Translations under genes and position numbers: made by a program
From: Stratiformator vulcanicus
GTDB taxonomy: Bacteria > Planctomycetota > Planctomycetia > Planctomycetales > Planctomycetaceae
DNA length: 64,000 nt
NCBI RefSeq assembly: GCF_007744515.1
Contig: NZ_CP036268.1
Location: 3,864,088-3,928,087 of the forward strand
Reading direction: 5' to 3'
The notes under the pieces: generated by a model
What the model was told of the DNA's origin: nothing
The model's input: only the letters and a program-made list of their open reading frames with translations
Database searches by the model: none
Part shown: positions 17,920 to 56,447 of the stretch, piece after piece
Layout: the number at the start of each line of letters is the position of its first letter
Numbering within the stretch: position 1 is the first letter of the stretch

Positions 17920-17952
17920 GAGCAAATCCCTTGCTTGCGCTGCGGGCTTGTG
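17920..17952 (+). repeat. Repeat A, copy 1
   Basis: Contains AATCCCTTGCTTGCGCTGCG followed by GGCTTGTG. The imperfect pairing of GCTTGCGC with GCGGGC makes a small hairpin. It is part of a longer 65-nt match to copy 3. Confidence 0.75.
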
Positions 17953-17976
17953 GGGGCGACGCAATTCGATTTTCTA

Positions 17977-18005
17977 ACAAGCCCGACGCGCGAGCGAGGG
18001 ATTTC
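17977..18005 (-). repeat. Repeat A, copy 2 (inverted)
   Basis: Reads ACAAGCCCGACGCGCGAGCG then AGGGATTT on the + strand, the inverse of copies 1 and 3. Copies 1-2 and 2-3 therefore form head-to-tail inverted pairs like REP doublets. Confidence 0.75.
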
Positions 18006-18085
18006 CTCAACGACTCTCCCGAACAAAAATTTCGCAATCCTTTATCAGCAGAGCGTGCGACTTGAAATGAGCGATGGGGAGATTA

Positions 18086-18120
18086 CGAGCGGAATCCCTT
18101 GCTGGCGCTGCGGGCTTGTG
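18086..18120 (+). repeat. Repeat A, copy 3
   Basis: Reads CGAGCGGAATCCCTTGCTGG then CGCTGCGGGCTTGTG. It ends 7 bp from the stop codon of the RAYT gene. Confidence 0.78.
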
Positions 18121-18127
18121 TGATGCG

Positions 18128-18601
18128 TCATTGCCCGTCACGGACGTAGCGGATCGCTGCTTCGAGGTGGTCTTCATCGTTGATGAACCGTCCGCTGCCG
18201 CCTTCGGTCCACCAATTTGTGCGTTTTGCGTCAAACTCGGACTTCAATCGCCGCGTGCACCACGCCTTGAACTCTTCGCGCACCTTTTTCGGTGGCACGG
18301 CAGCCGCGGTCACCACGACATGCGCGTGATTCGAGCGTGCGTTGACCGCATGCAGCATCCATTTCCGATGGTCGCAGTGATCACCGATCGTCCGCTCGAT
18401 CAGCGCTCGTTGCGATCGCGAAAGCAGCAACGGTTTCTCTTTCAGCCGAGCCGAAGAGTCTTCTCGCAGAATCGGCTGCGGCTCTTCAATTCGGAACACG
18501 CCTTTGTCGACCCATCCCCGATCATCCCCCGGCAGCCACGTCCCGTAGGTCGTCCACGTGATGAGGTACGCGAGTGCCTCACCGTGCGAGGGTATCGACA
18601 T
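18128..18601 (-). CDS. REP-associated transposase-like protein (RAYT), tyrosine position altered
   Basis: 157 residues in the HUH, Y1-type IS200-like family known as RAYTs, which nick single-stranded REP hairpins. Seen: YLITWTTYGTWLPGDDRGWV at the N-terminus (shared with the RAYT at 55450), the metal-binding HUH pair in NHAHVVV near residue 93, and FKAWCTRRLK where the second RAYT reads FKAYASRKLN. The residue at the nucleophile position is thus Trp, not Tyr. C-terminal blocks NWWTEGGSGRF and AAIRYVRDGQ are normal. It is flanked by repeat A copies 7 bp downstream and about 30 bp upstream. Either this subgroup uses another residue or the enzyme binds repeats without cleaving. There is no terminal inverted repeat typical of a self-moving IS. 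Confidence 0.85.
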   Translation of the reverse strand: MSIPSHGEALAYLITWTTYGTWLPGDDRGWVDKGVFRIEEPQPILREDSSARLKEKPLLLSRSQRALIERTIGDHCDHRKWMLHAVNARSNHAHVVVTAAAVPPKKVREEFKAWCTRRLKSEFDAKRTNWWTEGGSGRFINDEDHLEAAIRYVRDGQ

Positions 18602-18631: not shown

Positions 18632-18663
18632 CACAAGCCCGACGCGCAAGCGAGGGATTCGCT
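18632..18663 (-). repeat. Repeat A, copy 4 (inverted)
   Basis: Reads CACAAGCCCGACGCGCAAGC then GAGGGATTCGCT on the + strand, 30 bp upstream of the RAYT start. Confidence 0.78.
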
Positions 18664-18743
18664 CATGGGCTTGCCCGCCACGGGGCACTGTACATTTAAA
18701 TCACCATTGTGGCAAAAACGCAATGTTATTCGGGATTCTAGGA

Positions 18744-18777
18744 GCGAAATCCCTTGCTAACGCTGCGGACTTGTGAG
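18744..18777 (+). repeat. Repeat A, copy 5
   Basis: Reads GAGCGAAATCCCTTGCTAAC then GCTGCGGACTTGTG. It lies immediately downstream of the hisF stop (18784) and could serve as its terminator hairpin, though two substitutions weaken the stem compared with copy 3. Confidence 0.72.
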
Positions 18778-53548: not shown

Positions 53549-53742
53549 TGGGAAGACGGAAGATGGAATTCAGAAGACAGAATTCAGAAGACAGAAGACA
53601 GAAGTTGGAAGTTAACAATTAAGATTTAGAAGCCGAGACTTCGGCGTCAATTAAAAACGACTGGGTCTTCCGTTTCTCGATGAATCGCTATAACTATTTT
53701 GTTTACCGACTTCTAACTTCTAACTTCTGTCTTCTAACTTCC
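53549..53742. repeat. Purine and pyrimidine microrepeat arms
   Basis: 53549-53615 is a purine run of GAAGACAGAATTCAGAAGAC-type units. 53709-53742 is its inverse, ACTTCTAACTTCTAACTTCT followed by GTCTTCTAACTTC. The two arms could pair across about 95 nt. A further pyrimidine run CACCTCTAACCTCTCACCCC abuts the next start codon (53763-53784), leaving that gene without a Shine-Dalgarno sequence. Confidence 0.7.
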
Positions 53743-53784
53743 GACACCCCCCACCCACCAATCACCTCTAACCTCTCACCCCTC

Positions 53785-55350
53785 ATGTACCAATCACTTG
53801 AATCGAAAACGATGGGCGACGTCGATGTCGTCTATCACAACGGGCTATATCACCTGTTTCATCTGGTGCTGCCGAACCACGATTTTATCGCGCACGCCGT
53901 CAGTCCCGATGGGCTCAACTGGAAGCGAATTCAGAACGCGATCTTTATCGGGCATCCCGGCAGTTGGGATGATCACATGCTGTGGACGATGCACGTGACC
54001 CGCGACCCTTGGGACAAAGATAGCTGGCGGATGTTTTATACGGGGCTCTCTTCCAGCGAAGAGGGCAACGTGCAGCGGGTCGGAATCGCCCGCAGTCGCG
54101 ATCTCGTCCATTGGAAAAAGCTGCCTTCGCATTGGATTCCCGAGGTACAGGGCTGCGGCGATGAAGATGCCGCGGAGGCCCCGGCGATGATTCAAGGCGG
54201 CGTCGATCAGGACAGCCCGATCCCAATTTCAGCGCAGTCGCCGCATTATGAATCAACGCTCGAAGAAGGCCGCCGATGGGTGAGCTTTCGCGACCCCTAC
54301 TTCGTTCAGGAAGGCGATACCGGGCACCTTGTCGTAGCCGCGCGCGTTCCTCACGGCCCGGTGATTCGCCGGGGTTGTGTCGCGCATTATGTCGAGGTCG
54401 CAAAGGACACGTTCGAGCCCCGACCACCATTGCACCATCCCGGCGTTTATGACGATGTCGAGGTTCCAAATATTTTTAAGCTCGGCAAATTCTTTTACCT
54501 CGTCGGCAGTATTCGCGAAGACGCCAAGGTCCGCTACTGGTATTCGGAATCACCTACCGGCCCGTGGAAGAACTTTTATGACAACGTTCTTTTGCCCGGC
54601 GGCAACTACGCCGCCCGCATCAGCTTCGATAACGACGGTCCGATGGTCTGGAATTTTTTCGCGAACGACGAGACCCGAAAAAAAGCGAACTTAATGCCGC
54701 CGCCGAAACGCATTCGACAGGCAAAAGACGTACAATTAAGAATCGAACCATTCGAAGGATTTAATACCCGAGTCGAAGAAGTCGCATCTGCGAAAGAGGT
54801 CTGCTCCATCCATCGAATGACGAAAGACAAGAACGCCTCTGCGGATATTGATGACGACGGCAAGGGAATGTCGCTGCAATCGACCTCCGGTTTCGAGGCG
54901 TTCTTTATCGATGGCGAACTGGAGTCGTTCCGGCTCACCGCCGACCTCACCCTCGACGGCGACGGCAAGTGCGGGTTCCTGTTCCGCTTCGATCAGGAAT
55001 CGTCGAGCGGGTATCACCTCTCGCTCGACTTGTTAAAGGGCGTCGCTCAACTGCGTCGCTGGGGAGTGAATCCCGGCGGATTAACAGAACATGCCTTCCG
55101 CTTCTTTACGATTCAAGCAAGCTACTGGCGCACCTTCGAGAACAAGTCGTGCTCTGTGATCTTAACTGTGATGCAGAATTACATCGAGTTCTGCATCGAC
55201 GGCAAAGTGCTGCTCAGTTGTGCCGATCGTCTTTATGACAGCGGCTCACTCGGCATCTATGTCGAGTCAGCTTGCCTGCGGGTCGACAATATCAAGCTCG
55301 AAAGAATCATCCCCCCCTCAGCGCCGACTGACAATCTGGCTGCAACGTAG
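53785..55350 (+). CDS. GH32/GH43-like five-bladed propeller glycosidase with C-terminal lectin-like domain
   Basis: 521 residues from the ATG at 53785 (MYQSLESKTMGDVDVVYHNG); the frame opens 105 bp upstream inside the pyrimidine microrepeat, so that part is not credible. No signal peptide is seen. N-terminal propeller: GDVDVVYHNGLYHLFHLVLP (first Asp position), SWDDHMLWTMHVTRDP, WVSFRDPYFVQEGDTGHLVV (RDP motif of clan GH-F/J), VYDDVEVPNIFKLGKFFYLV (Glu candidate). The C-terminal part (about 390-510: KCGFLFRFDQESSSGYHLSL) is a concanavalin-like domain as in GH32. Hydrolysis of fructan or arabino-type sugars is possible; substrate is unknown. Confidence 0.72.
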   Translation: MYQSLESKTMGDVDVVYHNGLYHLFHLVLPNHDFIAHAVSPDGLNWKRIQNAIFIGHPGSWDDHMLWTMHVTRDPWDKDSWRMFYTGLSSSEEGNVQRVGIARSRDLVHWKKLPSHWIPEVQGCGDEDAAEAPAMIQGGVDQDSPIPISAQSPHYESTLEEGRRWVSFRDPYFVQEGDTGHLVVAARVPHGPVIRRGCVAHYVEVAKDTFEPRPPLHHPGVYDDVEVPNIFKLGKFFYLVGSIREDAKVRYWYSESPTGPWKNFYDNVLLPGGNYAARISFDNDGPMVWNFFANDETRKKANLMPPPKRIRQAKDVQLRIEPFEGFNTRVEEVASAKEVCSIHRMTKDKNASADIDDDGKGMSLQSTSGFEAFFIDGELESFRLTADLTLDGDGKCGFLFRFDQESSSGYHLSLDLLKGVAQLRRWGVNPGGLTEHAFRFFTIQASYWRTFENKSCSVILTVMQNYIEFCIDGKVLLSCADRLYDSGSLGIYVESACLRVDNIKLERIIPPSAPTDNLAAT

Positions 55351-55361
55351 TTCGACGACAT

Positions 55362-55444
55362 GGCGAGCCGGAAGCGTAAGCGCCCGGAGAATCGTCGCTT
55401 GCCACTGTGTCGTGATCTCCGGGCGCTGACGCTTCCGGCTCGCC
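55362..55444. repeat. Repeat B inverted pair, left of RAYT 2
   Basis: Forward unit 55362-55390 (GGCGAGCCGGAAGCGTAAGC then GCCCGGAGA) and inverted unit 55416-55444 (TCTCCGGGCGCTGACGCTTC then CGGCTCGCC) with 25 nt between. The pair can form a 29-bp stem with one or two mismatches. It ends 6 bp from the RAYT stop codon. Confidence 0.88.
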
Positions 55445-55449
55445 GTTAC

Positions 55450-56007
55450 TCAAGTGAAACGCCCTCGCTCTGAGCACCAGACGACCAGTGGATTGGGCTG
55501 CTTATAGAGCACGTAATTGATCGCATCCTGAACGGCTTTCGCGTCGTTCAGTTTTCGCTTTGAACCTTTCGTCGTCCACCACGTGTCCGACTGAGGGCGT
55601 TCATAGTTGGCGTTGAGCTTGCGACTGGCATACGCCTTGAAGTCGGAGAGCAACTTCTTCGGATCAGGATCGTTCTCGACCTGTACGACGAGATGAAAAT
55701 GATTCGGCATGATTGAGGCGGCGAGAAGTGACCATGCTCTGTAAGCGGCCGTTTCCTGAAATTGGGCAAGAATCAACTCGGCCTTTTCACCATCGAGCAG
55801 GATCGGCGGGCCTTTTAAGTTGTCCATTGCTGAGCGGTATAGCCCGGGAAGGTCACGATCATAAGGCCTCAGAGGCTGATCGTGCTCGCGACGTGAAATC
55901 GAAGGCGACTCCCCCGGACGACGATCACGGACACTGGTGACAAAGCCGCGCCGGTCGCCGGGGAGCCATGTGCCGTACGTTGTGTTGGTCAGGAGCCAGT
56001 GGCGCAT
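55450..56007 (-). CDS. REP-associated tyrosine transposase (RAYT) 2
   Basis: 185 residues, HUH/Y1 family. N-terminus MRHWLLTNTTYGTWLPGDRR. HUH pair in ASIMPNHFHLVVQVE near residue 103. Candidate nucleophile Tyr in FKAYASRKLN near residue 129; here, unlike RAYT 1, it is present. C-terminal block QSDTWWTTKGSKRKLNDAKA and INYVLYKQPNPLVVW. The gene is bracketed by repeat B pairs: 6 bp after its stop and about 20 bp before its start. Together they form a compact 740-bp unit (55362-56101). RAYT genes are normally vertically kept single copies that process their own REPs; this is consistent with repeat B being its substrate. Confidence 0.9.
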   Translation of the reverse strand: MRHWLLTNTTYGTWLPGDRRGFVTSVRDRRPGESPSISRREHDQPLRPYDRDLPGLYRSAMDNLKGPPILLDGEKAELILAQFQETAAYRAWSLLAASIMPNHFHLVVQVENDPDPKKLLSDFKAYASRKLNANYERPQSDTWWTTKGSKRKLNDAKAVQDAINYVLYKQPNPLVVWCSERGRFT

Positions 56008-56025
56008 GGGGATCTCTATATTTTA

Positions 56026-56101
56026 TCTCCGGGCGCTGACGCTTCCGGCTCGCCATTCGCATAGAAATTTCCAAGCGAGCCGGAAGCGTCAGCGCCCGGA
56101 G
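56026..56101. repeat. Repeat B inverted pair, right of RAYT 2
   Basis: Inverted unit 56026-56054 (TCTCCGGGCGCTGACGCTTC then CGGCTCGCC), then forward unit 56075-56101 (GCGAGCCGGAAGCGTCAGCG then CCCGGAG). Mirror arrangement of the left pair. The forward unit stops 1 bp before the stop codon of the next gene (56103). Confidence 0.88.
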
Positions 56102-56102
56102 C

Positions 56103-56372
56103 TTAAATCTTCCCCTTTTCAATTTCCTCGACGACTTTCGCCAGTACGGTGGGGTCGTCGCTGGCGACGACGTGATCGATGCGGCTTTGCGGGACTTTGA
56201 GCCGTTCCATCACCCCGGTCGCCGTCTCCCACGACTTCGCCCGTTTCTTACCGGTCGCCAGATAGAGCGTCGTCACCAACTCGGCCAGCTTTTGCTTATC
56301 GATATCTTCGCGGTTGTCGTAGTATCGCTGAATGACCTTCTTTTGGTGCTTAGAGTATTCGCGATCGGCCAT
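56103..56372 (-). CDS. Small conserved-looking protein, unknown function
   Basis: 89 residues, MADREYSKHQKKVIQRYYDN then helical, charged sequence with ELVTTLYLATGKKRAKSWET. No membrane segment or signal. The protein is well formed and the start (ATG at 56372) lies in a purine-poor context. Its stop codon is 1-2 bp from repeat B, which shows the REP/RAYT unit inserted exactly at the gene's 3' end without damage, or that the gene's tail was formed by it. It is about 90 bp downstream of argG on the same strand. Confidence 0.65.
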   Translation of the reverse strand: MADREYSKHQKKVIQRYYDNREDIDKQKLAELVTTLYLATGKKRAKSWETATGVMERLKVPQSRIDHVVASDDPTVLAKVVEEIEKGKI

Positions 56373-56412: not shown

Positions 56413-56447
56413 CGAGCGGAATCCCTTGCTTGCGCTGCGGGCTTGTG
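56413..56447 (+). repeat. Repeat A, distant copy 6
   Basis: CGAGCGGAATCCCTTGCTTG then CGCTGCGGGCTTGTG, nearly identical to the copy at 18086-18120, 38 kb away. It sits between argG (stop 56463) and the 89-residue gene, just 400 bp from the RAYT 2 unit, so the two REP families mix in the same intergenic zone. Confidence 0.82.

Follow-up and report, generated by a model that had tools for sequence, protein, structure and literature searches.

A class 3 TnpA_Y1 gene flanked by its likely substrate repeats in a planctomycete genome, and two repeat foot types that mostly follow two clades of the enzyme

In the window, that is, the whole 64,000-nucleotide stretch from 3,864,088 to 3,928,087 of a single-contig 5.23-Mb planctomycete genome (G000), a 740-bp unit at 55362-56101 consists of an inverted pair of repeat B, the minus-strand open reading frame of RAYT 2 and another inverted B pair. 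We consider it quite likely that this unit is a REPtron, a domesticated class 3 Y1 HUH transposase gene embedded in its own substrate repeats. When its relatives were collected, the protein tree and the flanking repeats pointed to a split of class 3 into two clades that are mostly tracked by two foot types of the repeat, and this split is what is new here.

Anatomy of the unit and its neighbours

The features of the unit are as follows.

55363..55389, plus strand: repeat B copy 1, with foot GCGAG and a single C>A change in its loop
55417..55443, minus strand: repeat B copy 2, forming the left inverted pair with copy 1
55450..56007, minus strand: RAYT 2, class 3 TnpA_Y1 by its features (HUH endonuclease fold), 185 aa, ATG start, H103-F-H105, Y165, Q170
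56027..56053, minus strand: repeat B copy 3
56075..56101, plus strand: repeat B copy 4, forming the right inverted pair with copy 3, with 1 base between it and the 89-aa gene's stop codon

The bracketing of RAYT 2 by two inverted B pairs, as claimed in the preliminary description, was borne out, since the four copies could be placed in the real window and none was found in 100 shuffles of it. In the pairs at RAYT 2 the complementarity is 97% over 29 nt and 94% over 34 nt, and their folding was calculated as about -41 to -43 kcal/mol (DNA parameters). The tight fit between two genes also agrees with the coordinates, as a single base separates the end of the right B copy (56101) from the 89-aa gene's stop codon, which begins at 56103. 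On the left side there are 11 bp from the previous stop, that of the 556-aa gene ending at 55350, to the unit, and the genes on either side are convergent.

This position has a bearing on one alternative explanation, namely that the B hairpins are retained because they serve some different function, for example in RNA stability or in ending transcription where genes converge, and that the gene is an inactive passenger. The unit does lie exactly between converging genes, and one base past a stop codon the right B pair is able to fold into a 27-bp hairpin. However, the RAYT 2 gene is intact with all its catalytic residues present, the B copies are mostly single and have unrelated flanks, and the association of clade with foot over about 100 loci, described below, would not be expected for a passenger, and we therefore regard this explanation as improbable.

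As to the neighbours themselves, homologues of the 89-aa gene (window 56103-56372, minus strand) were found in 39 of the 40 planctomycete genomes searched, with 36-69% identity, and a search of it against Pfam and NCBIfam gave zero matches at E 0.001. The 556-aa protein (window 53680-55350, plus strand) has weak GH32 N-terminal and beta-1,2-mannobiose phosphorylase-like matches, which are below the NCBIfam cut-off. In relatives, neither the upstream gene nor argG was found in the fetched flanks of the 89-aa homologue, so that the neighbours are not adjacent there and no syntenic empty site was available.

RAYT 2 and its class

The Y1_Tnp profile (PF01797) matched RAYT 2 with 34.3 bits against a curated cut-off of 23 (E 2.9e-8), and the NCBIfam RAYT model NF047646 gave 50.8 bits, which is below its equivalog cut-off of 80. 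H103, H105, Y165 and Q170 were invariant in an alignment of 30 homologues, and a profile search of the PDB returned IS200-type TnpA matches (E 1.6e-7). When the AlphaFold2 model of RAYT 2 (mean pLDDT 89.6) was compared with solved structures, ISDra2, IS608 and S. tokodaii TnpA were matched with VIA Z of 13-14.6, mostly at 1.6-2.1 A, and E. coli TnpA_REP with its REP hairpin (4er8) was matched with a Z of 11.7 and at Foldseek rank 1. Fold matches to Thg1 and parvovirus NS1 (Z 8-10) were discounted, as they reflect a ferredoxin-like or HUH fold in common. RAYT 2 has the HUH motif, one catalytic Tyr on the following helix and the HUH fold, which are the marks of the Y1 HUH superfamily.

The motif Y----Q (Y165 to Q170) is found in RAYT 2 and also in RAYT 1 and three further Y1 proteins of this genome (L005, L006 and L007), and in most RAYT 2-type relatives it is Y---Q, one residue shorter. 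The unit has several flanking hairpins that recur in the genome, as in class 3, and the foot of B is GCGAG, which is neither the CnGA given for class 3 nor the GTAG or GTGG of class 2 RAYT/TnpA_REP. Because its Y----Q spacing, its planctomycete host and the hairpins around the gene agree with the description of He et al. 2018, RAYT 2 together with B is, judged by these features and not by clustering, a REPtron of class 3 TnpA_Y1 and not an E. coli-type RAYT. Thus the earlier reading as a REP/RAYT unit stands in the form of a REPtron, but the class 3 identity of both proteins and at least three further class 3 paralogues had been missed.

Repeat B in the genome

The genome-wide repeat census was done by pattern searches with the reversed pattern as control. 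The 27-bp repeat B was found at 28 sites at up to 3 mismatches, 15 of them exact, and the reversed control gave 0. As many as 24 of the 28 copies have no gene with them. Over exactly 27 bp (GCGAG...CGGAG) the dispersed copies show identity or near-identity, and their flanks are unrelated, the sole likeness beyond these borders being an AG bias directly upstream. Single sites account for 22 of the 28, which is not the pattern of mostly close inverted pairs expected of a REPIN population, and because there are only three inverted B pairs in the genome, two of these at RAYT 2, the model of REPIN-pair mobility fits B poorly. A sub-family of five copies (GGGAGCGTNAGCGACCGGAG or GAGAGCG...) matches the REPs of L040 and L041, which come from Gemmataceae MAGs and are the closest relatives of RAYT 2, both being flanked by B-like REPs.

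RAYT 1, repeat A and the other Y1 genes

Y1_Tnp profile matches were found at 11 loci of the genome, and RAYT 2 is present as a single copy. In a full-length alignment with 30 invariant columns were placed RAYT 2 (L004), RAYT 1 (L009), L005, L006 and L007, and a weaker sixth match lies at 4,816,620; the number of class 3 genes in the genome is at least five. RAYT 1 and its repeats in the window are as follows.

17926..18118: three copies of repeat A 3' of RAYT 1, at 17926 (minus), 17978 (plus) and 18094 (minus)
18128..18601, minus strand: RAYT 1, 157 aa, by its features a class 3 TnpA_Y1 from the sister clade, with repeat A on both sides
18634..18773: two copies of repeat A 5' of RAYT 1, at 18634 (plus) and 18749 (minus, 2 mismatches)

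Repeat A has 165 copies genome-wide (reversed control 0). Two RAYTs had been noted in the window, each with a private repeat family and with repeat A also next to unit 2. The two genes are indeed there, 37 kb apart, but the whole genome has the 11 Y1_Tnp genes; the families are distinct genome-wide (165 copies against 28), but "private" is too strong a word, as B-like repeats occur in 8 of 58 relatives; and the A copy near unit 2 exists (56421-56445, 320 bp off), but it is a chance neighbour, one of the 165 and beyond another gene.

Among the other loci, the partner of L006 is an ATAG-type repeat with 55 copies and that of L005 is CAAGCCCGAGGCGC. L007 (G000:C1:4056594-4059818) has none of those short repeats and has a direct repeat of about 130 bp on each side, with the letters GAGCGGATCAGAGCCG ... 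CCCTGATCCGCTTCCT. Three loci, L008, L010 and L011 (G000:C1 near 2963456, 1104369 and 4716641), have the Y-motif YIHxNPVRR and are flanked by terminal inverted repeats about 29-34 bp long, an arrangement that resembles the TIR-flanked RAYT genes described before (PMC3733652).

With five or more class 3 paralogues in the same genome, and with B-like repeats in genomes without RAYT 2, it could be asked if B is moved mainly by another Y1 protein and RAYT 2 merely lies inside a B cluster. We hold this to be very unlikely, as RAYT 2 has 4 of the 28 B copies and 2 of the 3 inverted pairs, B-like REPs flank its nearest relatives L040 and L041, and no B at up to 6 mismatches was found beside the other ten Y1 genes of the genome.

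Two clades and two foot types

The proteins compared came from 80 loci with named organisms, 59 relatives and 40 fetched regions, which together gave 135 distinct Y1 proteins, and 107 of these were placed in the class 3 tree. Repeated hairpins lying no more than 350 bp from a gene were taken as its cognate REPs, with a strand rule applied; a hairpin finder without this rule gave mixed feet and was replaced by the stranded version. At about a dozen loci where several hairpins overlap, the automatic labels were wrong, and about two dozen loci were curated by hand. Before the hairpins GC was tied with AG because shifted registers of one unit were counted. For this reason the NNAG foot rests on the recurring words CGAG, CAAG and TGAG and on the tree and not on the dinucleotide tally; among the best units ending in AG the feet were CGAG in 29, CAAG in 11 and TGAG in 6.

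The RAYT 2-type branch has 54 rows (SH-aLRT 98), and G stands at foot position -3 (NGAG) in 48 of its 48 labelled loci, mostly as GGCGAG or GGTGAG. In the 53 RAYT 1-type rows, N[A/C/T]AG feet were found at 38 of 44 labelled loci and G at -3 at 6 of 44. Fisher's test of clade against foot gave p 7e-20 with the curated labels, and with fully automatic labels, where G was found at 49 of 51 against 9 of 46 loci, it gave p 8e-16. As Fisher's test treats related genes as independent, the change counts on the tree are the better guide: the foot label changed 5 times (curated) or 10 times (automatic) compared to about 36 times with group G shuffled. Hence the pairing of enzyme and repeat proposed from this one genome holds, as a match of clade to repeat type, far beyond it. 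The six RAYT 1-type loci with GAG feet are exceptions, and G at -3 is not exclusive to the RAYT 2 clade. A natural exception to the rule is L135 of genome G032, which is RAYT 1-type and has the B-like REP CGAGCCGGAAGCGTCAGCGACGGG.

What is conserved in the REP

Covariation was examined in 25 REPs of the RAYT 2 side with 20-nt hairpins, counting stem pairs only; in one row, L103, the foot is shifted and the stem is correct. It was found that 96% of stem cells were paired compared to 65% when shuffled, a percentage that is partly circular because the structure came from the same sequences. The two-sided changes are the informative part, and there were 52 of these against 16 in the shuffled set. 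The stem covariation score was 0.73 against 0.19 shuffled and 0.10-0.19 in slid controls. The foot and the tetraloop, most commonly GTNA, stay fixed in RAYT 2-side REPs while the stem drifts, and because the stems covary, foot and loop look like the conserved signal of the REP. The loop letter (GTNA versus GCNA), weighed as a further determinant of the choice, has the same leaning as the foot, but it is mixed in the RAYT 1 clade.

In the proteins, Met100 and Ala76 of RAYT 2 stand in clade-specific columns that have Arg in 52-53 of the 53 RAYT 1-type proteins, and residue 100 is three positions ahead of the HUH motif. From this position and the fixation by clade, our guess would be that these columns read the foot. 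It may be, and we put this forward tentatively, that there is a one-letter code at foot position -3 which goes back to an ancient split, that Met100/Ala76 versus Arg beside the HUH motif set the choice, and that REP populations could thereby coexist without cross-talk.

Layout and mobility

When the REPs around the gene were compared among 51 RAYT 2-type loci, their order and orientation were found to be widely variable, and the layout of unit 2 (< > gene > <) was seen at only 1 of the 51. On that count the symmetric layout was rejected as a functional feature, and the symmetry of the B pairs, to which the preliminary description had drawn attention, is not a feature of the family. The variation in layout speaks against the gene and its repeats moving as one element. 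The explanation that would need such movement is an autonomous IS200/IS605-like insertion sequence with B hairpins as its ends. It finds some support in the inner two B copies, which are on the same strand on either side of RAYT 2 like the LE and RE hairpins of IS608, and in the Y----Q motif of class 3, which is related to that of class 1 transposases (PMC6006769). But RAYT 2 is a single copy in the genome, the flanking REPs vary freely in orientation and number in the 51 relatives, and 24 of the 28 B copies are without the gene, and this explanation is therefore unlikely.

The single-copy RAYT 2 gene is probably domesticated. From co-occurrence, which is an association, we infer B, and not A, to be the substrate of RAYT 2. 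It would bind single-stranded B hairpins, for example where they are exposed on the lagging strand, the target being a foot GCGAG directly 5' of a stem of 8 positions closed by a GTNA tetraloop, and would nick B by means of Tyr165 with the HFH metal site. It would then copy or move B elsewhere, which would explain the scattered 27-bp copies. B would be told from A chiefly by having G and not A at foot position -3, with the loop and the bases close to it contributing, and the sequence of the stem would be free to drift through compensatory change.

Distribution of B and RAYT 2 across genomes

At the level of genomes the association was examined in 59 genomes. An excess of GGYGAGCN{6,7}CGTNAG was found in 7 of 12 genomes with a RAYT 2-type gene against 5 of 47 without (p 0.001), and the other 5 of the 12 had no excess of the GAG pattern. 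At least 20 HAGCCCGNNGCGCNAGC sites were found in 8 of 16 genomes with a RAYT 1-type gene against 1 of 43 without (p 4e-5). The association of gene with foot is thus clear but loose.

With up to 3 mismatches allowed, repeat B itself is present in G000 and in the eight relatives mentioned above, and no intact B-flanked RAYT 2 was found among these eight, so that the expectation that B would be limited to genomes with RAYT 2 was not confirmed. What counts against the link of B with RAYT 2 is that G001, G012, G020 and G027 have B and no RAYT 2 was found with it. G001, a complete genome, has 13 B copies and no RAYT 2 was detected in it; G012 has 47, and the REP around its own RAYT 2-type gene is a different one; and in G020 and G027 B is present and no RAYT 2 was found. 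RAYT genes may be missing from assemblies with many contigs because repeats break contigs, but this does not apply to G001. The finding that had been named as one that would refute the pairing, B mainly in genomes without RAYT 2, was therefore approached, but G026 appears to hold a relic, and orphan REPs are a known pattern: REPs without a RAYT, decay of RAYTs, and orthologous RAYTs with changed REPs are reported for other bacteria by Nunvar et al. 2013 (PMC3686654).

In G026, which has 16 B copies, a fragment of the RAYT 2 N-terminus, VWLLTNTCYGNWLLG (L197, C115:2524-2708), lies directly behind a decayed inverted B pair; the match is weak (E 0.1) but well placed, and the fragment is a probable decayed relic of RAYT 2. 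G029 (98% complete, 350 contigs) has 393 GAG-type hairpin sites against 13 in the control, and no RAYT 2-type gene was found in it. G051 has 357 copies of a B' repeat, GCGAGCCGGGAGCGTGAGCGACCGGAG, and the listed sites often lie in tight inverted pairs at a distance of 33-38 bp; hairpins other than B' flank the two RAYT 2-type genes of this genome.

Comparison with known systems

In vitro work has resolved the choice of REPs by RAYTs for no more than three enzymes, all of class 2 (PMC8266576), and in a search of open-licence papers nothing was found on RAYT in Planctomycetota or Gemmata or on REPs in Rhodopirellula. Here a single genome has at least five class 3 enzymes, and two of them, 37 kb apart, come from two clades and have repeats that differ at a defined foot letter and in the loop. 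RAYT 1 and RAYT 2 are thus a natural pair for studying the choice of REPs, and there are more than 90 natural enzyme-substrate pairs against which any rule of specificity can be checked. Because the A and B families are distinct and the pairing of clade and foot holds widely, the specificity of REP and RAYT can be tested in this genome, as had been suggested.

Class 3 TnpA_Y1 was set up with 24 proteins, which were likened to both ISs and REPtrons (He et al. 2018, PMC6006769); in that paper the foot is given as CnGA and the proteins are treated as one coherent class and left for experiment. Unit 2 adds a member to this class, which has been described but little studied, and what is new is that two foot types track the clades. 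It resembles the class 3 of that account in the planctomycete host, the Y----Q motif, the extended N-terminal conservation and the several flanking hairpins recurring in the genome. Unlike that account, with its CnGA foot and one class, the foot here is NNAG and there are two clades, one with CGAG or TGAG and the other with CAAG, TAG or CAG types.

Compared to the class 2 TnpA_REP/RAYT of E. coli and Pseudomonas (4ER8; PMC8266576), the HUH-Y1 fold, the hairpin with a 5' tetranucleotide ending in AG, the embedding of the gene in its own REPs and the separate REP families per enzyme in one genome are shared, whereas RAYT 2 differs in its NGAG foot, which is not GTAG or GTGG, in having Y----Q and not the class 2 Y-motif, and in its RAYT model score of 50.8 against the cut-off of 80. 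The IS200/IS605 TnpA proteins (IS608, ISDra2) are the nearest solved folds (VIA-align Z 14.2-14.3) and have the same type of Y1 motif, but unlike them RAYT 2 is a single copy with multiple REPs in variable orientation and no sign of movement as a unit. The orthogroups of Pseudomonas and Stenotrophomonas, in the part of PMC3686654 that bears on them, lack any described difference in foot between sister clades and belong to another protein class and phylum; what unit 2 and its relatives have in common with them is that REPs outlive a lost RAYT, that RAYT orthologues can have different REPs, and that two RAYTs with different REPs are found in one strain.
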